Virus record (IMG/VR): IMGVR_UViG_3300032223_001809
Coordinates: 1 to 20,225 of that record
DNA: 20,225 nucleotides
From: a virus
Strand: one strand, 5' to 3'
Positions 5,131 to 16,968 of this stretch are shown here, piece after piece. The translations under genes were made by a program, and so were the position numbers. Numbering within the stretch: the stretch's first letter is position 1; each line of letters opens with the position of its first letter. The notes under the pieces are model-generated. The model was given only the letters and a program-made list of their open reading frames with translations, searched no databases and was not told the origin of the DNA.

Positions 5131-5360
5131 TGCAGTGCCCAGATTGTAAACAACTTCGCCATGCCGGGGAATGCGAACCCCAGCCCACGGAACTGAATAT
5201 GCTGGAAGCTGCAAGAGACGTTACCTTCGGCAAATGGTGCAGGCTTATAGCCGATCTCCCCATTGTAGGCCGTACAGAAGAACAGCAGGGGCAGATTGAT
5301 GCGGCTAGGGCGTCGGCGCTGGAAGCCAGAAATCGTTATCTAGATGCAGGTGAAAAATGA
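5130..5360 (+). CDS. 76-aa protein with N-terminal Cys motif
   Basis: The start is set at 5130 (TGATG overlap), not at an upstream in-frame ATG (5061) that would run through the membrane-peptide gene. The product begins MQCPDCKQLRHAGECE with C3, C6 and C15, a half-ribbon that could bind metal with a partner. The rest is helical and charged (EEQQGQIDAARASALEARN). Its stop overlaps the Rad52-like start (ATGA), so it may be co-expressed in a fixed ratio with the annealase. Function unknown. Confidence 0.6.
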   Translation: MQCPDCKQLRHAGECEPQPTELNMLEAARDVTFGKWCRLIADLPIVGRTEEQQGQIDAARASALEARNRYLDAGEK

Positions 5361-6085
5361 ACCTTGATGATCTCCGCAAGCCCTTCCCGCCAGAGGCTAT
5401 ATCCTGGCGGGTGGGCAGTACGACCAAGGACAAGACGAAGGGCATGGCGCTGGCCTATATCGACGCCCGCGACGTGCAGGATCGGCTGGACGCGGTTTGC
5501 GGGATTGATGGCTGGCAATGCCGCTATGTCCCGATGCATGACAAAAAGACTGTCTGCGAAATCGGCATTCGTATTCCTAGGCCCGATGGAACTACTGGCA
5601 AGGTGCTGGCCGATTGCGAATGGGTATGGAAAGCCGATGGCGCGGGCGATAGTGACATTGAGGCAGAAAAGGGCGCTTTGTCTGACGCCTTCAAGCGCAG
5701 TGCGGTTCGCTGGGGCATTGGCCGCTATCTCTACGATCTGGACAGCCCCTGGGTTGAACTTGACACCTACGAGAAGAATGGCACTGTATTCGCTAAGGGC
5801 ATCAAGCAGGGCGAATACGCCAAGCTGCGGGCGCTTCTAGCCAAGAATGGAAAGCCGCCGTCTAGCCCCTATCCTAGCCCTTCTGAGCATGTTGACCGCG
5901 CGACTAAAGCCCGCGAATGGGCTCTAGGCCAAATACCCAAGATCAAAGCCATGGATCGCGCATCTCTTGATGCGTTCCTACTTAAATTCCGCCAGCAGAT
6001 TGTTGACCTAAAAGAACTGGACACCAAGGCTAGTGTGGAAATGGACAAAGCTGTGTCTGACCGTCTTGAAGCGCTCTTTGCATGA
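5357..6085 (+). CDS. Rad52/Rad22-family single-strand annealing protein
   Basis: This 242-aa protein carries the Rad52-family signature SDAFKRSAVRWGIGRYLY at residues 109-126. It is preceded by the beta-sheet core with AYIDARDVQDRLDAV (33-47) and GWQCRYVP (52-59). Such proteins form rings that bind ssDNA and anneal complementary strands, the phage counterpart of Red-beta/ERF recombinases. The C-terminal third (from about 165) is a Pro/Ser linker followed by a charged helical tail, likely for SSB or partner binding. It sits in the rightward early operon and has no recognisable 5'-3' exonuclease neighbour. Together with the RuvC-like gene it gives annealing plus junction resolution. Confidence 0.85.
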   Translation: MNLDDLRKPFPPEAISWRVGSTTKDKTKGMALAYIDARDVQDRLDAVCGIDGWQCRYVPMHDKKTVCEIGIRIPRPDGTTGKVLADCEWVWKADGAGDSDIEAEKGALSDAFKRSAVRWGIGRYLYDLDSPWVELDTYEKNGTVFAKGIKQGEYAKLRALLAKNGKPPSSPYPSPSEHVDRATKAREWALGQIPKIKAMDRASLDAFLLKFRQQIVDLKELDTKASVEMDKAVSDRLEALFA

Positions 6086-6501
6086 CCAAAATGTTCCTGC
6101 GCCGGGTAGGTAATACCCTTGTTCCCGATGGCGAAGAATCGGTTAGCGCCATGTCTACCCTGCCGTTTAACAAGTCATTTATGGCGGAGGTTAAACAGCC
6201 TCGAAACCCAGCATTTCATAGGCTATTTTTTAGCGTATGCCGTCGCATCGGGGACGGTGTAGGGTGCAACGAGGAACAGATCGCCTCGGTATTTAAGCTG
6301 GCGACGGGCCATTATGAAATCATAAAATCAAAGCGGCACGGGGAGTTAAAAATCCCAAAATCAATATCTTTCGCGCAAATGGATAATACCAAATTCCGCG
6401 AGTTCTTTGATAAATGCTTAGTAACGGCTTTCGAGGAATGGCGCATAGAGCCGGAATCTCTGGCGGATTTGATTGATCCTAAGACTGAGGCCCGGGGATG
6501 A
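6082..6501 (+). CDS. DUF1367-family phage protein
   Basis: The 139-aa protein has the DUF1367 pattern: an N-terminal strand ending LVPDGEES, then MAEVKQPRNPAFHRLFFSVC (residues 34-53, the family's KRPRNPxFHRKFF block), and a C-terminal KSISFAQMDNTKFREFFDK block. The biochemical role is unknown; members occur in recombination/Nin-like regions of tailed phages. The start forms ATGA with the Rad52-like stop and the stop forms ATGA with the HNH gene, so all three are probably coupled. Confidence 0.75.
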   Translation: MTKMFLRRVGNTLVPDGEESVSAMSTLPFNKSFMAEVKQPRNPAFHRLFFSVCRRIGDGVGCNEEQIASVFKLATGHYEIIKSKRHGELKIPKSISFAQMDNTKFREFFDKCLVTAFEEWRIEPESLADLIDPKTEARG

Positions 6502-6866
6502 GAGCCGTAGAAGAATGGACCGGCAAAACAGACGATAGCGTTGCGCCTCCTAGAATACGCCTCAGAGTTTTCGAGCGCTGCAAAGGCCGCTGCGGTATCT
6601 GTGACCGTGTAATACATGCGGGCGAACGCTGGACCCTTGAGCATGTCATAGCAATTTGCAACGGCGGTCCAAACTGTGAGAGCAACATGGATATTACATG
6701 CTGCAATTGCTTGGCAGCTAAGAACGCTGCGGATGTGGCGGAAAAATCCAAGGTTGCGCGAACAGCCAAGAAGCATAAACTGCCAAAAGAACCCAGCAAA
6801 TGGGGCTGCGGCAAAGGGTCGAAGTTCAAAAAGAAGCTAAACGGCCAGACCGTTCTAAGAGGATAA
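6498..6866 (+). CDS. HNH endonuclease
   Basis: This 122-aa protein contains a compact HNH module: FERCKGRCGICDRVI with C32 and C35, the catalytic TLEHV (E48-H49) and SNMDITCCNCLAAKN (N63, C68/C69, C71), the zinc-knuckle and N/K parts of the beta-beta-alpha-metal fold. The C-terminal 40 residues are very basic (KKHKLPKEPSKWGCGKGSKF) and likely bind DNA. It follows DUF1367 with an ATGA overlap, the position of Nin-region nucleases; it is not next to the terminase, so a packaging-nicking role is less likely than one in recombination. The exact substrate is unknown. Confidence 0.8.
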   Translation: MRAVEEWTGKTDDSVAPPRIRLRVFERCKGRCGICDRVIHAGERWTLEHVIAICNGGPNCESNMDITCCNCLAAKNAADVAEKSKVARTAKKHKLPKEPSKWGCGKGSKFKKKLNGQTVLRG

Positions 6867-7507: not shown

Positions 7508-7993
7508 ATGGCTTGGCATGTTATAATTTCCAGCCCCCAGCAAGAAATTCGCGCCTCAATAGAGGTATCAAAAGCCGGGTTTGAAGTTTTTTTCCCCATT
7601 AAGCGATATGTCCGCAGACCCCTGAACCGGCCAGAACAGATCGTGACCGGTCCCCTTTTCCCCCGCTATTTCTTCGCTTCTTTTGAGCGCGAAAACCCGG
7701 AATGGGCTAAAATACTGGATATGCGTGGGGTTTCGGACGTTCTGCGCAATGGAAACAAGCCAGTTATCGTGAGGGATGCTGTGATTGACGCAATTCGGGA
7801 ATACCGGGAGCCTGAGAAGGCCCCAGAGGGCCAAACTGTATTCGAGAAGGGCCAGCGGGTTAGGGTTTCAACCGGGGTTCTGACGGGTATTGAGGGGCTT
7901 TTCCAAGGAAGTGATCGACAGCGGACCAAGGCGTTCCTTGAGATATTGGGAAAGAAAATTGAACTTCCCTATGAAACCATAGATGCGGCCTGA
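7508..7993 (+). CDS. RfaH-like specialised NusG paralogue (phage antiterminator candidate)
   Basis: This 161-aa protein has the NusG layout. An NGN domain (about 1-98) begins WHVIISSP and contains TGPLFPRYFFASF (48-60) and RGVSDVLRNGNKPVIV (73-88), both closely matching RfaH (PLFPNYLF, RGVSHFVR). A linker runs to about 110, then a KOW domain (VFEKGQRVRVSTGVLTG, then GLFQGSDRQRTKAFLEILG). The KOW tail follows the RfaH pattern more than that of housekeeping NusG. NGN binds the RNA polymerase clamp and suppresses pausing; specialised paralogues are recruited by DNA elements such as ops. It is the last gene before the early/late junction and is followed by a structured 236-nt leader, so an early-to-late antitermination role is inferred. 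Confidence 0.88.
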   Translation: MAWHVIISSPQQEIRASIEVSKAGFEVFFPIKRYVRRPLNRPEQIVTGPLFPRYFFASFERENPEWAKILDMRGVSDVLRNGNKPVIVRDAVIDAIREYREPEKAPEGQTVFEKGQRVRVSTGVLTGIEGLFQGSDRQRTKAFLEILGKKIELPYETIDAA

Positions 7994-7999
7994 AACTTA

Positions 8000-8029
8000 T
8001 TGACGGTTCCGGCATATTGTGCGCAATAT
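8000..8029 (+). promoter_or_regulatory. Possible late promoter overlapped by a small palindrome
   Basis: TTGACG (8000-8005) and CAATAT (8024-8029) with 18-nt spacing are a plausible sigma70 promoter. The downstream part contains a hairpin ATATTG-TGCG-CAATAT (8014-8029), which may serve as an operator over the -10. It lies directly after the RfaH-like gene. Confidence 0.4.
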
Positions 8030-8043
8030 TTAGCGCTCGTATG

Positions 8044-8072
8044 CAGTAGTGGGGCCGAAATTCCCACAGTAG
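8044..8072 (+). promoter_or_regulatory. Leader hairpin with repeated CAGTAG; possible ops-like element
   Basis: CAGTAG occurs at 8044-8049 and 8067-8072. Between and overlapping them GTGGG (8049-8053) pairs with CCCAC (8063-8067) around a 9-nt loop. GCAGTAGTGG resembles part of the RfaH ops core (GCGGTAGCGT) at about 7 of 10 positions. The functional link is inference. Confidence 0.3.
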
Positions 8073-8101
8073 CTACGGCTCAATCTGTCTCCGTTCCTCG
8101 T

Positions 8102-8161
8102 TTTGAGGCGTGGGCAGACCTTCCCTAAATGGCTGCGTTGTGAGGAATTTGAGGCTACGGC
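8102..8161 (+). repeat. Short direct repeats in the late leader
   Basis: TTTGAGGC is found at 8102-8109 and 8148-8155, and GCTACGGC at 8072-8079 and 8154-8161. They fill the non-coding stretch before the 8230 gene and could be recognition elements for an antiterminator or late regulator. They are short enough to be chance. Confidence 0.3.
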
Positions 8162-8229
8162 CCGGTTTCGCATGACTATTCCGCAGTATCTCCTGCCAGC
8201 CGGATCAACCCCAAAAATAGGAGTTTACG

Positions 8230-8808
8230 ATGCCAGGCTGGACAACTAATGGCGTTCCCCTTCTCGGCTCTGCCACGGGCGCTGAAACCGTTTCGTTTGA
8301 CTCAAATCTTGCTAGCGGTACTAACCCGCAGACGGCGGCGATCAGTCTGCAGCAGCTTGCGCTGGATGTCAGCCTTTACGCGACCAAGCTGGACAAGACC
8401 ATGGTTGCGGGCACCCGCTATTATACGTCCTACACCATCGGCGTCCCCCAGGTGTTCACTGGCGGCATTGTCGAAGTGGGCAGCACGGGCGGCACGGACT
8501 TGTGGAACATTGAGCTTCACAGCCCGACTGGCGCGACCCTTGCCACCACCCTCCTAACCGGTACCACGGCGGGCACGGCCAACACTTGGCAGCAGATCGC
8601 CTTCACTTCGACCTATACCCTGACCGTTCCGGGTACCTATTTTGTCGTGCTGCAGTCTAACGGCACCACGGCCAAGTTTGCGTCCCTGAACTCGCCCATC
8701 AGCACCCTGCTTACCGGCTCGGCTGCTGGCACGCTGGGAACTGCCGCTTCGATCACCCCGCCGACCACCTACACGGCGAACCTGGGTCCGAAGATTGTAT
8801 TGTACTGA
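8230..8808 (+). CDS. Beta-rich, Thr/Gly-rich structural protein (putative decoration or fibre protein)
   Basis: The 192-aa protein is rich in Thr, Gly, Ala and Ser with few charged residues, has regularly alternating beta strands (GTYFVVLQSNGTT, TRYYTSYTIG) and ends GPKIVLY. This is typical of phage surface, decoration or short fibre domains with a jelly-roll-like fold. AGGAG 6 nt before the ATG is a strong start. The gene has its own leader and is closed by a strong terminator, so it is probably an independent, highly expressed transcript outside the morphogenesis block. No catalytic motif or signal peptide is seen. Exact virion role unknown. Confidence 0.65.
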   Translation: MPGWTTNGVPLLGSATGAETVSFDSNLASGTNPQTAAISLQQLALDVSLYATKLDKTMVAGTRYYTSYTIGVPQVFTGGIVEVGSTGGTDLWNIELHSPTGATLATTLLTGTTAGTANTWQQIAFTSTYTLTVPGTYFVVLQSNGTTAKFASLNSPISTLLTGSAAGTLGTAASITPPTTYTANLGPKIVLY

Positions 8809-8854: not shown

Positions 8855-8893
8855 GGCCCCCGCTGTGATCCACACCCAGCGGGGGCCATTTTT
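8855..8893 (+). terminator. Strong intrinsic terminator after the 8230 gene
   Basis: GGCCCCCGCTG (8855-8865) and CAGCGGGGGCC (8877-8887) form an 11-bp perfect stem with an 11-nt loop, followed by five T (8889-8893). It lies 46 nt after the stop. Confidence 0.9.
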
Positions 8894-10092: not shown

Positions 10093-10452
10093 ATGTCAGA
10101 CGCCGATCCAAATACAAATGGGAAGGAAAAGGCTAAATCCACGCTTTTCCAGCCCGGCCAGATAGCCAATCCCGCTGGTAGACCAAAAGGCTCGCGCAAT
10201 AAGCTAGGCGAGCAGTTCATTCAGGCTTTGCAGCAGGACTTTGAAACTAACGGTGTTCAGGCTATTGCCACGGTTCGCGAAGAGCGCCCCCACGAATATC
10301 TGAAGGTTGTGGCGTCGCTTCTGCCTAAGCAGATTGAAATTAAGGAAGATGCATTTGACGGCGTTAGCGATGAGCAACTCGCCGCTCTTGTCCATGCCGC
10401 CAGAGACGCTCTCGGTGTTGCTGAAGGCAGCGGAGAAAGAGCGTCTCACTAG
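10093..10452 (+). CDS. Small terminase subunit-like protein (DUF5681)
   Basis: This 119-aa protein has the DUF5681 signature near its N-terminus: FQPGQIANPAGRPKGSRNKL (residues 19-38), followed by a helical region containing VVASLLPKQIEIKE (90s and before). Such genes precede the terminase large subunit and are considered DNA-recognition (small) terminase subunits, binding the packaging site. AGG lies only 4 nt before the ATG, a weak ribosome site. The terminase large gene starts inside its 3' end. The GRPKGSRNK stretch is AT-hook-like, consistent with DNA binding. Confidence 0.75.
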   Translation: MSDADPNTNGKEKAKSTLFQPGQIANPAGRPKGSRNKLGEQFIQALQQDFETNGVQAIATVREERPHEYLKVVASLLPKQIEIKEDAFDGVSDEQLAALVHAARDALGVAEGSGERASH

Positions 10453-11116
10453 GCTCTCGCGGAACAGGCTTAGGGACTATCGGCCCTATTCCAAGCAGCG
10501 AGACTTTCACTCAGCCGGTAAGCTCTATACCGAGCGCCTGTTCATGGCTGGTAATCAGCTAGGCAAGACCATTGCCGGTGGGATGGAATGGGCCATGCAC
10601 TTGACGGGCAGATACCCGGATTGGTGGGATGGCTACACCTTCGATCATCCCGTGCGCTTCTGGGCTTCTGGGGTGACTGGCGAAAGCACTAGGGACAATC
10701 CCCAGCGCATCTTGGTCGGCCCCCCTCAGCAGAAAGAGGCTTGGGGCACAGGATCGATTCCCTTTGAGTGTCTCAAGGATTGGGACATAACCCGGGGCTT
10801 GCCCAATGCGATTGACAGCATTGTGGTCAAGTGGGGCGGGGGTGGTGACGTACAGGCCCAAGAGAGCGTTTGCGCTTTCAAGTCTTACGAGAAGGGCCGG
10901 GAGAAATGGCAGGGGGAAACCCTAGATGGTGTTTGGTATGATGAAGAGCCGCCTTTAGACATTTATACCGAAGGCAATACTCGCGTTCAGGCCCGGAACG
11001 GTTTAGCTATCATCACTTTTACACCCCTGAAGGGCATGAGTGAGGTTGTGAGTTTGTTTCTCACAGACGTAATGCTTAATGAGCTTCAAGAAAATGCAAA
11101 GGCGTCAGCGGCATGA
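10370..11116 (+). CDS. Terminase large subunit, ATPase part (split)
   Basis: This is the packaging motor ATPase domain. From the ATG at 10370 the product has 248 aa. Visible are Walker A FMAGNQLGKT (loop at about residues 60-67), Walker B LDGVWYDEEPP (186-195) with catalytic acid, and coupling motif TFTPLKGM (216-223), the P22-gp2-like arrangement. The frame stops at 11116 just after this domain, before the nuclease domain, which is a separate overlapping ORF. Possible starts are ATG 10370, ATG 10394 and GTG 10415; all lie inside the preceding gene and none has an ideal ribosome site. Either the gene is split or a -1 frameshift joins the two parts. Confidence 0.8.
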   Translation: MSNSPLLSMPPETLSVLLKAAEKERLTRLSRNRLRDYRPYSKQRDFHSAGKLYTERLFMAGNQLGKTIAGGMEWAMHLTGRYPDWWDGYTFDHPVRFWASGVTGESTRDNPQRILVGPPQQKEAWGTGSIPFECLKDWDITRGLPNAIDSIVVKWGGGGDVQAQESVCAFKSYEKGREKWQGETLDGVWYDEEPPLDIYTEGNTRVQARNGLAIITFTPLKGMSEVVSLFLTDVMLNELQENAKASAA

Positions 11117-11865
11117 CCCGGCACGTCACGATGATGACGATCGGCGACGCCGAGCATTACTCGCCCGAGCGCCGTGCTGAGATTATCGCCGGTTATCCTC
11201 TTCATGAGAGGGATGCACGTTCCAAGGGAATACCCGTGCTGGGCTCTGGCGCGATATTCCCGGTATCCGATGAGGATATCATGTGCGCGCCGTTTCAGAT
11301 CCCGGCTTATTGGCCCCAGATCAATGGGCTGGACTTTGGCTACGACCACCCGTTCGGTGCTGTGAATTGCGCCTGGGACCGGGATTCCGACACGTTCTAC
11401 GTCTGCAAGGAATACACAGTCCGCCTTCAAGGCCCGATTATGCACGTTGGCGGGATTAGACCTTGGGGTGATTGGATCCCAACCTCATGGCCCCATGACG
11501 GGCTTCAGCACGATAAGGGCGGATCTTGCGAGGAATTGGCGAGCCAGTATCGCAACTTGGGTCTGAACATGCTCCCAGAGCGTGCTACGTTCCCTAACGG
11601 GGGAAATGGCGTAGAGGCCGGAGTTCTTGAAATGCTAGATATGATGCAGACCGGCCATTGGAAGGTGTTTAGCACCTGTGGTTCGTGGTTTTCTGAAAAG
11701 CGTCTTTACCACCGTAAAAATGGGCAGATCGTCAAGGTAAAAGATGACGTGCTTTCCGCCTCTCGATACGCTTTTATGATGCGGCGCTTTGCCAAAACAA
11801 ACACAATTAAAAAGATCGGCCCCAAAATGCCCCAGCAACTTGGCGGCGGATGGCAGAGCCGCTAG
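11113..11865 (+). CDS. Terminase large subunit, nuclease part (split)
   Basis: This 250-aa frame holds the RNase H-like headful nuclease domain. It has the GLDFGYDHPFGAVN strand with catalytic D74, a WPHDGLQHDKG block (D129), and KVKDDVLSASRYAF with D210/D211, the three acidic positions of large terminases. The start HVTMMTIGDAEHYSPERR is the segment that follows the ATPase part in intact relatives, so nothing substantial is missing. The ATG overlaps the ATPase stop as ATGA. It could start there by coupling (AAAGG about 10 nt upstream) or be reached by a -1 slip at A-AAG (11098-11101). Confidence 0.8.
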   Translation: MTRHVTMMTIGDAEHYSPERRAEIIAGYPLHERDARSKGIPVLGSGAIFPVSDEDIMCAPFQIPAYWPQINGLDFGYDHPFGAVNCAWDRDSDTFYVCKEYTVRLQGPIMHVGGIRPWGDWIPTSWPHDGLQHDKGGSCEELASQYRNLGLNMLPERATFPNGGNGVEAGVLEMLDMMQTGHWKVFSTCGSWFSEKRLYHRKNGQIVKVKDDVLSASRYAFMMRRFAKTNTIKKIGPKMPQQLGGGWQSR

Positions 11866-11871
11866 GATTTA

Positions 11872-14085
11872 ATGGCTACCGAAGACACACGTCATAACAG
11901 CGACGAAGACAAATCCGGCACCAAGGACGAGCAAATCGTTCGTGAGGCAATGCGCCGTTTTGACATTTGCGCCACTGTTGAAAATGACACTCGCCAGCGC
12001 TTCATTGCGGACGTCAAGTTCGCTAACGGTGACAGTGACAATCTCTGGCAGTGGGATGCAAACTCCCGCACGGCCCGAGGCTATGGGACAATTGACGAAC
12101 GCCCCTGCCTGACTATCAACGCCACCAGGCAGTTCAACCTTAACATCATCAACGACGCCAAGCAGAACAAGCCAGGCGTCAAGGTTAAGCCGGTTGGTAA
12201 TGGCGCCACCTATGACGCCGCCCAGGTCTTTGAGGGCATTGTCCGGCACATCGAGTATATCTCGAATGCCCAGGCTGCTTATGACACGGCGACCACGTTT
12301 CAGGTGCAGGGCGGCATTGGCTGGCTTCGTGTCACGACTGATTACCCAGACTTTAACGACCAGTCATTCGACCAAGAGATATTTATTCGCCGGGTGAAAG
12401 ACCCGCTGACCATCTACCTTGACCCCGATATCAAGGAAGCTGACGGTTCGGACGCTCGTTATGGCTTTGTCTTTGATGATATGAGCCGGGATGTATTTAA
12501 CGAAAAATATCCCAAGCACAAAGACCTTGCTACCAAGTCTCCGCTTGACGTTGCTGGCGATTGGCTCCGTGGCGACCAGGTCCGGGTTGCTGAGTATTAC
12601 CGTGTAGTTGAGACTGACGATAAGCTGGTGGCGCACATCGGCCCGGATGGGCAGCGCGCTATTCTTCGCAAGTCTAAGATGGCCGCAGAAGATTATAAGA
12701 CTGCCATTGACGATCCACAGACCAAAGAGCGGGACATTAGCGACCGCACGGTTGAGTGGTATTGCATTGCAGGCGACAAGATTATTGATCGGTCCATCTG
12801 GGCTGGGCGCTATATCCCCCTGTTGCGGGTGATTGGCGAAGAAACCATCATCAACGGTCAGTTAGATCGCAAGGGACATACGCGGGCACTCAAAGACCCT
12901 CAGCGCCTTAGCAACTATTGGTATTCTGCTGCCACTGAACACGTCGCTCTACAGTCCAAGACGCCTTACATCGGCCCGATGGCTGCTTTCGAGAACCTTG
13001 AGACGTATTGGGACAGTGCGAATACCGTCAATCATGCTTGGTTGCCGTTTAATCAGTATGACGACAAGGGCCAGCAGTTAGCGGCCCCTCAGCGCCAGCC
13101 CCCGCCCATCATGGCCGAGGCTTACATCAAGGGCCTAGAACTGTCCGACCTAAAGATGAAGCAGGTTTCTGGTCAGTACGAAGCTGACCTAGGAATGCAG
13201 GGTAATGAGAAATCCGGCGTAGCGATCCAGCAGAGGCAGCGCCAAGGTGACAACGCGACGTATCATTATATTGATAACCTTGCTCTTGCTATTCGCTATC
13301 TGGGCAAACAACTAATTGACCTCATTCCCAAGATTTACGATACCGAGCGTGTCGTGAAAATAATGGGCGAAGATGGGATTGAGAAAGAGGTCCGGATCGA
13401 TCCCAAGGCACAGCAGGCTTACCAGCAAGAACAGGGTGAGAACCTTGCCTCGATTAGAAGCATATTTAATCCCTCTGTGGGCCGTTACGACGTAGAGGCA
13501 GACATTGGCCCGGCGTTCGCTACTCGCCGCCAGGAAGCCTTCCAAGCTCTTATGCAGCTTGCGAAGAGTGACAACCAGATCATGCTCAAGGCGGGCGATT
13601 TGGTTGTGAAGGCGTCGGATATTCCGCTGGCTGACAAGATTGCTGAGAGACTGAAGCCGCAGCCTGGTCCCGACCCTCAGATGCAGGAAGCCCAGAAGGC
13701 GATCCAGTCTCAGGGCGAAATGATGACGAAGCTTTCTAGCGAGCTAACCAAGATCAGGGCTGACCGCTCGATTGAGGAGCAGCAGAAGGACATTGATCGT
13801 TATAAGGCTATCACTGACCGTATGAAGGTCTTGCTTCCGATGGAAACGAGCCCAGCCGCAGCTCAGAAAATGCTGCAGGATATGCGTATGGCTGAACATC
13901 AGAGCAGTCTGGGAATGCTGGCTAGGGAACACAGTGCGATGCTGGGTTCTATGCAGTCGAACCAAAACAATAGCGCGGCACCGGGTCAACAGGTTCCACA
14001 GGAGCAAATGCCCCAAGGGCCGGAAGCGCCGCAGCTCGAAGACCAACAGGCCCAGGCGCCGCAACCCGCACAGGCAGCAGAATGA
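11872..14085 (+). CDS. P22-like portal protein
   Basis: The 737-aa protein is close to P22 gp1 (725 aa) in length and carries the family's features: an early LTINATRQFNLNIINDAKQN segment (residues 83-102), IEYISNAQAAYDTATTFQV and GGIGWLRVTTDYPD (wing), and a C-terminal helical barrel region rich in Gln, Met and Ala (about 600-737). The dodecameric portal forms the DNA entry vertex and anchors the tail. The extreme C-terminus is Pro/Gln-rich and may be disordered. AGGA just before the ATG gives a ribosome site with short spacing, 6 nt after the terminase stop. The stop overlaps the next start (ATGA). Confidence 0.92.
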   Translation: MATEDTRHNSDEDKSGTKDEQIVREAMRRFDICATVENDTRQRFIADVKFANGDSDNLWQWDANSRTARGYGTIDERPCLTINATRQFNLNIINDAKQNKPGVKVKPVGNGATYDAAQVFEGIVRHIEYISNAQAAYDTATTFQVQGGIGWLRVTTDYPDFNDQSFDQEIFIRRVKDPLTIYLDPDIKEADGSDARYGFVFDDMSRDVFNEKYPKHKDLATKSPLDVAGDWLRGDQVRVAEYYRVVETDDKLVAHIGPDGQRAILRKSKMAAEDYKTAIDDPQTKERDISDRTVEWYCIAGDKIIDRSIWAGRYIPLLRVIGEETIINGQLDRKGHTRALKDPQRLSNYWYSAATEHVALQSKTPYIGPMAAFENLETYWDSANTVNHAWLPFNQYDDKGQQLAAPQRQPPPIMAEAYIKGLELSDLKMKQVSGQYEADLGMQGNEKSGVAIQQRQRQGDNATYHYIDNLALAIRYLGKQLIDLIPKIYDTERVVKIMGEDGIEKEVRIDPKAQQAYQQEQGENLASIRSIFNPSVGRYDVEADIGPAFATRRQEAFQALMQLAKSDNQIMLKAGDLVVKASDIPLADKIAERLKPQPGPDPQMQEAQKAIQSQGEMMTKLSSELTKIRADRSIEEQQKDIDRYKAITDRMKVLLPMETSPAAAQKMLQDMRMAEHQSSLGMLAREHSAMLGSMQSNQNNSAAPGQQVPQEQMPQGPEAPQLEDQQAQAPQPAQAAE

Positions 14086-15664: not shown

Positions 15665-16921
15665 ATGTCTAATACCCTTCTGACTATTGGCGGCATCACC
15701 CGCGAAGCCATTCGCCTGTTTATGAATAGCAATGCTTTCATCGGCAACATTGAGAAGCAGTACGACTCGTCTTTCGCCAAGACCGGCGCCAAGATTGGTC
15801 AGCAGCTTCGCATCCGTCTGCCTAACGACTATGTGGTTTCGGACGGTCCGGCCCTTAGCGTGCAGGACACCAACGAACAGCAGACGACTATCACTGTCGC
15901 CACTCAGCGCCACGTTGATACCTCGTTCAATTCGGTGGATATGACCATGAGCTTGGACGACTATTCCGAGATCATCCTGGCCCCGAAGATCAACAACCTG
16001 GCCGGTAACGTTGCTTCGACCATCATGTCGGGCGTGACTGTTGCTCAGGGTGCCTTCGCGGGCACTGTGGTCAACGGTGCGGAAGGCGGCATCAGCAACT
16101 ATGTTGCGAATGTTGATGGGTCGAATAACGTTATTTCGCCCACCTCCGAAACCTGGCTTACCGCTGGCGCGAAGCTCGATCAGAACTCGGCTGGGGTCCA
16201 GAACCGCAAGGCTGTTCTTGATCCCTTCACGATGGCGCGCACTGTGTCCAGCCTGTCGGGCCTGTTCAATCCGGCTGCTGATATTGGCCGTCAGTATCGC
16301 AATGCCCGCATGTATGACGCCCTGAACCTGGAATGGTTCATGGACCAGACTGTGGTCAACCACACTGTCGGCACGTTCTCTGCCGGTGGTACGGTCAACG
16401 GCGCTTCCCAGACCGGCACGACCATTGCGGTTAATGCCATCACGGGCACTCTGACCAAGGGTGACATCATCACCTTTGCCGGTGTCAATGGCGTCAACCG
16501 CGTCACCAAGCAGACCACTGGTACGCTGCAGCAGTTCGTTGTGACCGCTGCGGTTGCCACGGGCGGCACCTCCGTCACGATCTATCCGGCCATCGTTCCC
16601 CCGAGTTCGGGTAATGCTGTCCAGTATCAGACCGTCACGGCTTCCCCGGCCAATGGCGCTGCTATGGCTCTGGTTGCCAACGCTGGCGCGACGTATCGCC
16701 AGAACTTCGTCTATGCCCAGCAGGCCGTGACGATGGTGACTGCGGACCTCATGATGCCCCCGAATGTTAAGGGTGCCCGTGAGCAGATGGACGGCGTTTC
16801 GATGCGTGCTGTGACCCAGTACGTTATTGGCACCGACCAGACGGCTGATCGTCTGGACGTGTTGTTCGGCTTCTTGTTTGTTCGCCCGGAATGGGCTTGC
16901 ATCGTGGCCGGTACTATCTAA
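15665..16921 (+). CDS. Major capsid protein, P22 coat (gp5) family
   Basis: The 418-aa protein matches the P22-coat pattern: NTLLTIGGITREAIRLFMN at the start, then EKQYDSSFAKTGAKIGQQLR and RLPNDYVVSDGPALSVQDTN, with a conserved late block (NFVYAQQAVTMVTADLMMPP) and a C-terminus ending in FLFVRPEWACIVAG. P22 gp5 has 430 aa. The middle includes a Thr/Gly-rich beta insertion (about 240-320), corresponding to the insertion domain. GGA with ACGTT before the ATG is a usable ribosome site. This gene forms the HK97-fold shell and follows the scaffold gene as in P22. Confidence 0.93.
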   Translation: MSNTLLTIGGITREAIRLFMNSNAFIGNIEKQYDSSFAKTGAKIGQQLRIRLPNDYVVSDGPALSVQDTNEQQTTITVATQRHVDTSFNSVDMTMSLDDYSEIILAPKINNLAGNVASTIMSGVTVAQGAFAGTVVNGAEGGISNYVANVDGSNNVISPTSETWLTAGAKLDQNSAGVQNRKAVLDPFTMARTVSSLSGLFNPAADIGRQYRNARMYDALNLEWFMDQTVVNHTVGTFSAGGTVNGASQTGTTIAVNAITGTLTKGDIITFAGVNGVNRVTKQTTGTLQQFVVTAAVATGGTSVTIYPAIVPPSSGNAVQYQTVTASPANGAAMALVANAGATYRQNFVYAQQAVTMVTADLMMPPNVKGAREQMDGVSMRAVTQYVIGTDQTADRLDVLFGFLFVRPEWACIVAGTI

Positions 16922-16933
16922 CTAAGTAAAATA

Positions 16934-16968
16934 CGGCCCCGGTAGATTGTCTGTCGGGGCCGACTTTT
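16934..16968 (+). terminator. Probable intrinsic terminator after the coat gene
   Basis: CGGCCCCG (16934-16941) and CGGGGCCG (16955-16962) form an 8-bp perfect GC-rich stem with a 13-nt loop, followed by AC and four T. The short T run suggests partial termination, which would leave coat mRNA in excess over the downstream tail genes. An antiterminator would be needed to read through. Confidence 0.7.

Follow-up and report, generated by a model that had tools for sequence, protein, structure and literature searches.

A phage genome fragment carries, at the junction between its early and late genes, a specialized NusG paralogue of the RfaH type, and we consider it likely that this protein is the late antiterminator of the phage, a counterpart of lambda Q. 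RfaH is a bacterial factor that allows RNA polymerase to read past termination signals. The stretch analysed here (the window) is a linear IMG/VR virus fragment of 20,225 bases, and its assignment to a phage is therefore direct. Its gene order agrees with the original prediction of an early/late junction: on a single strand, genes for ERF, NinB and HNH proteins lie upstream of the RfaH-like gene, and genes for terminase, a P22-like portal, the coat protein and, by PHROG match, head closure lie downstream (Table 1). The structured leader that had been proposed between the two blocks is present, the segment at 8045-8175 folding with a z-score of -2.7 and none of 200 shuffles being equally stable. 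The two intrinsic terminators also exist, as perfect stems at 8855-8887 and 16934-16962 with T-rich tails, although their loop lengths or tail spacing hid both from a simple terminator scan. The product of the first gene past the leader is 57-93% identical to homologues in other phages; in L135 and L136 the homologue has different neighbours, and no RfaH-like gene was seen immediately upstream of it. The terminase large subunit is split into frames 10307-11116 and 11113-11865, and since the identical split recurs in L008, L009 and L054 a sequencing error is unlikely.

Table 1. Features of the window around the RfaH-like gene, and loci of the element found in alphaproteobacterial phages.
Feature	Position	Strand	Basis or remark
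ERF, NinB and HNH genes, early (recombination) block	5357-6866	+	PHROG 1097, 319, 333
RfaH-like NusG paralogue, 161 aa	7508-7993	+	Profiles, AlphaFold2, PDB matches, tree
Candidate late promoter, TTGACG (8000-8005), N18, CAATAT (8024-8029)	8000-8029	+	Sequence
CAGTAG, first degenerate ops-like core	8044-8049	+	Sequence
CAGTAGC, second degenerate ops-like core	8067-8073	+	ops CGGTAGC with G4 to A
Long leader hairpin, window only	8049-8171	+	Predicted fold, z -2.7
Conserved leader element, GGCUGC - stem (8137-8144 / 8169-8176) - UAUUCC	8131-8182	+	Covariation, eight phages
First gene past leader, 192 aa, no PHROG match	8230-8808	+	Kept in sister phages
Intrinsic terminator, 11-bp perfect stem, tail ATTTTT	8855-8893	+	After first structural gene
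Terminase large subunit, two overlapping frames	10307-11865	+	PHROG
P22-like portal	11872-14085	+	PHROG 156, E 4e-111
Major head (coat) protein	15665-16921	+	PHROG 283
Intrinsic terminator, 12-bp perfect stem, tail ACTTTT	16934-16968	+	After coat gene
~60-nt element of alphaproteobacterial phages	L002 12740-12799; L011, L013-L018, L020, L021, L030-L049		Sequence conservation

Sequence comparison supports well the identification of the window protein as a phage-borne specialized NusG paralogue of the RfaH type. The open reading frame starts with ATG and encodes an NGN and KOW protein in which the blocks PLFPRYFF and RGVSDVLRNG are present as first claimed, and the Pfam NusG domain is matched at 53.8 bits (cut-off 22.2). 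Among NCBIfam models the ranking was RfaH (TIGR01955; 100.6 bits, E 8e-29, 151 of 159 positions covered), UpxY (61.7 bits, E 8e-17), the NusG equivalog (41.6 bits, E 1e-10) and LoaP (35.8 bits, E 8e-9). The profile search against RfaH, LoaP and NusG thus places RfaH on top, far above the other two, and housekeeping NusG is not the best match. None of the four models reached its curated cut-off (144.5, 100, 135.7 and 125 bits, respectively), so that the protein lies below the TIGR01955 equivalog threshold. It also matches PHROG 6386, 'transcription antiterminator' (E 1e-17). In a maximum-likelihood tree it groups with L133, L054, L057 and L055 in a phage-only clade (support 100/98) that is separate from the cellular and plasmid RfaH clade and from the NusG rows, the deep branches being poorly resolved. 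Two 'viral' contigs in the set, L058 and L059, cluster with cellular RfaH.

AlphaFold2, given an input of 33 phage sequences, predicts an NGN domain and a β-barrel KOW domain (pLDDT 88.6). Foldseek matches in the PDB are RfaH and NusG in transcription complexes, including RfaH in ops-paused complexes, and the predicted NGN domain superposes on recruited RfaH (8pen) with a TM-score of 0.87 by target length. The RfaH side chains that contact ops DNA are K10, H20, R23 and R73 (PMC5995543); the window protein has S, E, K and R at these positions, R73 alone being retained. At the E48-R138 pair of RfaH it keeps R138 and has G at position 48. The autoinhibited form of RfaH, in which an α-helical KOW domain packs on the NGN domain, is not predicted in the AlphaFold model, which has the β-barrel instead. 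Since the gene lies beside its proposed target and the model predicts a permanent β-barrel for the KOW domain, RfaH autoinhibition is probably absent; this predicted barrel and the loss of E48 suggest that autoinhibition may be unneeded where gene and target adjoin. A 2026 preprint describes constitutively active cellular RfaH homologues that adjoin long operons (PMC13015549).

We then asked where relatives of the gene are found. Used as a single query, the window protein had no close relatives among either viral contigs or genome contigs, and relatives were found only with alignments to which plasmid RfaH had been added. A divergent alignment of nine paralogues was too weak as a query; an alignment of the window protein with two plasmid RfaHs yielded 123 viral contigs with relatives, from which 79 loci were kept, and 138 viral contigs were obtained when the window's own clade was later used as the query. 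The terminase large subunit gene is downstream on the same strand in 34 of the 36 RfaH-type records that have one, mostly 0.4-4 kb away; the remaining two (L121 and L128) fit the same order only if the records are circular, and an opposite-strand terminase occurs in none of the 36. At least three unrelated PHROG groups are represented among these terminases. By analogy, the position before the terminase corresponds to that of Q in lambda. The named phages nearest by portal, PAE2 and phiAX1, have no NusG domain, which indicates that the RfaH-like gene is not fixed in P22-like phages. Plasmid homologues sit among polysaccharide or conjugation genes. One apparent phage 'NusG', in Microcystis phage MaAM05 (MW495066.1, L023), was dropped as bacterial DNA on account of its secE-nusG-rplK-rplA context and accompanying metabolic genes.

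The sequences beside these genes point to a recruitment signal. In E. coli, ops has two functions, as a consensus pause and as the recognition site of RfaH, which reads it in the form of a non-template-strand hairpin, and a G4C change in ops abolished RfaH recruitment (PMC5995543). The core of this landing site, GCGGTAGC, was spotted in two leaders and tested afterwards by a count, with no prior choice of k-mer, over the 150 nt after the gene in 45 clusters formed at 70% identity. It proved to be the commonest 8-mer there, in 11 of the 45 clusters; the minus strand had no occurrence, and eight windows farther downstream had about none. With a background rate of 0.27% per 150 nt, the probability is 4e-15 once the three suggesting loci are left out. 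Once the 60 nt before the gene are added, CGGTAGC is found near the gene in about 17 of the 45 clusters. A held-out set of 16 new contigs has GCGGTAGC after the gene in seven (6/15 when the identical pair L249 and L250 is counted once) and never on the minus strand. Within 80 nt of the RfaH-like stop in L301 (downstream of 4480) lies GGCGGTAGCGTG, a perfect 12-nt E. coli ops identical to the ops12 oligonucleotide used in the eLife 2018 structural study of RfaH with ops (PMC5995543). In six phages (L089, L101, L117, L118, L124 and L131) CGGTAGC precedes the start of the RfaH-like gene by 6-40 nt, an arrangement that would suit an operon headed by its own controlling gene. A 16-base ops-like motif scanned alone over the collection gave 105 matches, near chance, with an RfaH-like gene at 3 of 80 loci. 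From the ops cores next to the gene, such phages probably switch on their late genes by a borrowed bacterial mechanism.

The window itself has no exact ops core, and the two CAGTAG sequences past the gene are only degenerate. The second, with one mismatch to CGGTAGC, begins 73 nt past the stop codon, and CGGTAGC lies 68-79 nt past the stop in L246, L249, L133 and L054; CAGTAG is not rare in the window, with six matches against five expected. Given this degenerate site and the loss of most ops-contact residues, the protein may read a changed site, a hairpin or both.

Such a hairpin is conserved. An element consisting of GGCUGC, a stem-loop and UAUUCC is common to eight related phages, directly before the homologue of the first gene past the leader. 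In a six-member alignment 92.9% of cells pair, compared with 75% in shuffles, nine cells are changed on both sides, and the covariation score was matched by none of 500 shuffles; in an analysis of all eight members, which covered eight pairs, the score was reached in 8 of 40,320 permutations. A covariance model recovers L055 and L248, which were outside it, with weak E-values of 0.1 and 0.2, but each of these elements stands exactly before the same conserved gene and each carries GCGGTAGC. In both phages other genes (1.3 kb and 0.4 kb) separate the RfaH-like gene from the element. Overall, GCGGTAGC lies inside the leader element in five of the eight members. A search of the window against Rfam gave no match, and the leader element is absent from that database. 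The long hairpin confined to the window would, from its predicted fold, compete with the conserved one.

In six of the eight phages a σ70 promoter is predicted ahead of the element. Its -35 is of the TTGAC type (TTGCGG in L246), a spacer of 16-17 nt leads to the -10, and GGCTGCG follows 6-7 nt later, so that the late transcripts of these six would begin with the element. The window and L054 have extra sequence between promoter and element. The candidate promoter of the window begins 6 bases after the stop codon of the RfaH-like gene; its -10 is weak, and a generic consensus promoter scan did not list it. Its first part, TTGACGGTTCC (8000-8010), recurs in L133 and, minus the first four bases in the gene-end cut, in L254. 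A terminator follows the first gene in at least five of the eight (the window, L054, L246 and L254, and L133 by eye), and two sister phages have no clear terminator at this place.

We infer from this arrangement a model for recruitment, read-through, timing and exclusion of Rho. The RfaH-like factor would be made as the last early gene, and an always-on host σ70 promoter just past it would start the late transcript. RNA polymerase would be caught in the leader by an ops-type pause together with the leader hairpin, where the NGN domain would bind the paused enzyme and stay on. The polymerase carrying it would then read past both terminators, the one behind the first gene and the one behind the coat gene, and probably past Rho as well, allowing the structural genes to be expressed. 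The late antiterminator role put forward in the original prediction is well supported by comparison, namely by the place of the gene near late genes in dozens of phages, the ops cores of relatives and the covarying leader, and read-through of the two terminators keeps the standing of a proposal. Counting against the model are the missing exact ops in the window, the lost contact residues, the restriction of CGGTAGC to a minority of clusters, the near-chance yield of the 16-base motif, the grouping of L058 and L059 with cellular RfaH and the two sister phages that show no clear terminator past the first gene.

The same observations could arise if the protein were a constitutively active paralogue whose main role is counter-silencing, keeping Rho and host NusG off long phage transcripts genome-wide, with no specific loading site. 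The predicted β-barrel KOW domain, the loss of E48 and the degenerate ops of the window would all fit such a factor, as would the constitutively active RfaH homologues found by long operons (PMC13015549). However, the ops cores and covarying leader elements of the relatives argue for a loading site, and strong intrinsic terminators stand within the late region, and we regard genome-wide shielding as a possible but distinctly less probable explanation. It is rather unlikely that the leader hairpin works independently, as an RNA antiterminator or as a 5' stabilizer of an abundant first-gene mRNA, with the RfaH-like gene merely nearby: although the element begins at the predicted transcription start and tracks the first structural gene even where it is apart from the RfaH-like gene, as in L055 and L248, an exact ops core is present in five of the eight elements, and unrelated phages without the element show enrichment of that core past their RfaH-like genes.

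Two further explanations concern the gene itself. Chromosomal RfaH alters host operons such as those for surface polysaccharides, and a cargo gene of this kind would be in keeping with the company of the plasmid homologues, but we think it very improbable since the gene keeps its position ahead of terminase in dozens of phages whose modules differ, and has the sites beside it. That the phage acquired an ordinary housekeeping-type NusG with a general role in elongation would account for the NusG-like fold and the general NusG matches in the PDB; with the RfaH profile ahead by 59 bits and the protein placed apart from NusG in the tree, we give this the least credence of all. The reading that we prefer is thus the RfaH-type late antiterminator.

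A separate NusG-like family in alphaproteobacterial phages shows the same gene order before terminase. Bradyrhizobium phage ppBjS10J-1 has a NusG-like gene, annotated as hypothetical, that precedes the terminase genes, and in Labrenzia phage vB_LagS-V1 a NusG-like gene with the same annotation lies near the record end; both proteins also match PHROG 6386. An element of about 60 nt, CAAATCAG...CGGCCGGT...CACCCGCCGGGYGGCTTGTGTC, is found 47-277 bp after the alphaproteobacterial NusG-like genes; an exact 20-mer of it occurs in 20 viral contigs, 16 of which have a NusG-like gene just upstream. It is often followed by a strong terminator, and its end, GGGYGGCTTGTG, resembles the consensus pause. 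The alphaproteobacterial element (CACCCGCCGGGYGGCTTGTG) was considered as a counterpart of the window's leader and rejected, being absent from it; the stem of the CACCCGCCGGGYGGCTTGTG element shows one compensatory change, which is not significant (49 of 500 shuffles). The late-leader terminator regions of L014 (10730-10813) and L020 (861-945) match the Rfam sRNA family suhB/mmgR (RF00519).

The proposed switch shares features with several known systems. Like RfaH and ops of Enterobacteria, it combines an NGN and KOW protein, for which RfaH is the best profile, with an ops core beside many phage relatives and a long operon of foreign genes as proposed target. Unlike RfaH, the window protein falls below the equivalog cut-off, has lost K10, H20 and E48 and has a KOW domain predicted as β rather than α, and the phage gene adjoins its own proposed target, where the ops is degenerate. 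A last early gene with a promoter, a leader and one or more terminators lying between it and the late genes is a layout shared with lambda Q, pR' and tR'; it is present in the window, with its weak -10, and in sister phages. In contrast to lambda, the protein is unrelated to Q, the proposed signal is an ops and hairpin leader rather than the σ-dependent promoter-proximal pause of Q, and the terminator comes after the first late gene. The coupling of a NusG paralogue to a leader hairpin recalls in outline LoaP of Firmicutes, whose profile scores far below its cut-off here. To our knowledge, known phage late antiterminators (Q, N, p7 and put RNAs) are unrelated to NusG paralogues.

The NusG paralogues of plasmid tra operons are likewise specialized paralogues on a mobile element beside a presumed target, and rfaH-like genes on prophages have been mentioned in passing (mBio 2020; PMC7593976); the phage late operon, ops sites and leader described here go beyond that mention. 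PHROG 6386 provides a shared annotation, 'transcription antiterminator', with no tested function or recruitment element behind the label. RfaH-like genes on prophages are therefore already in print, whereas our search of the literature on phage RfaH, phage ops and NusG-like late antiterminators, with subscription journals mostly outside its scope, found no report of ops/leader coupling in phages.

If true, a phage switch built from RfaH and ops would add a further way of controlling late genes, and its members would offer a natural series of RfaH-site pairs in which to study the co-evolution of recognition. We see roughly even chances that these phages represent a widespread class in which an RfaH-type NusG paralogue is the late switch, loaded at ops within a leader hairpin that forms the 5' end of the transcript from an always-on late promoter, and that the RfaH/ops of enterobacteria may descend from such mobile, self-contained switches. 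Such a switch would also bear on the origin of RfaH: the phage copies lie beside their targets and the copy in the window is seemingly not autoinhibited, as predicted for the proposed early stage of RfaH evolution.
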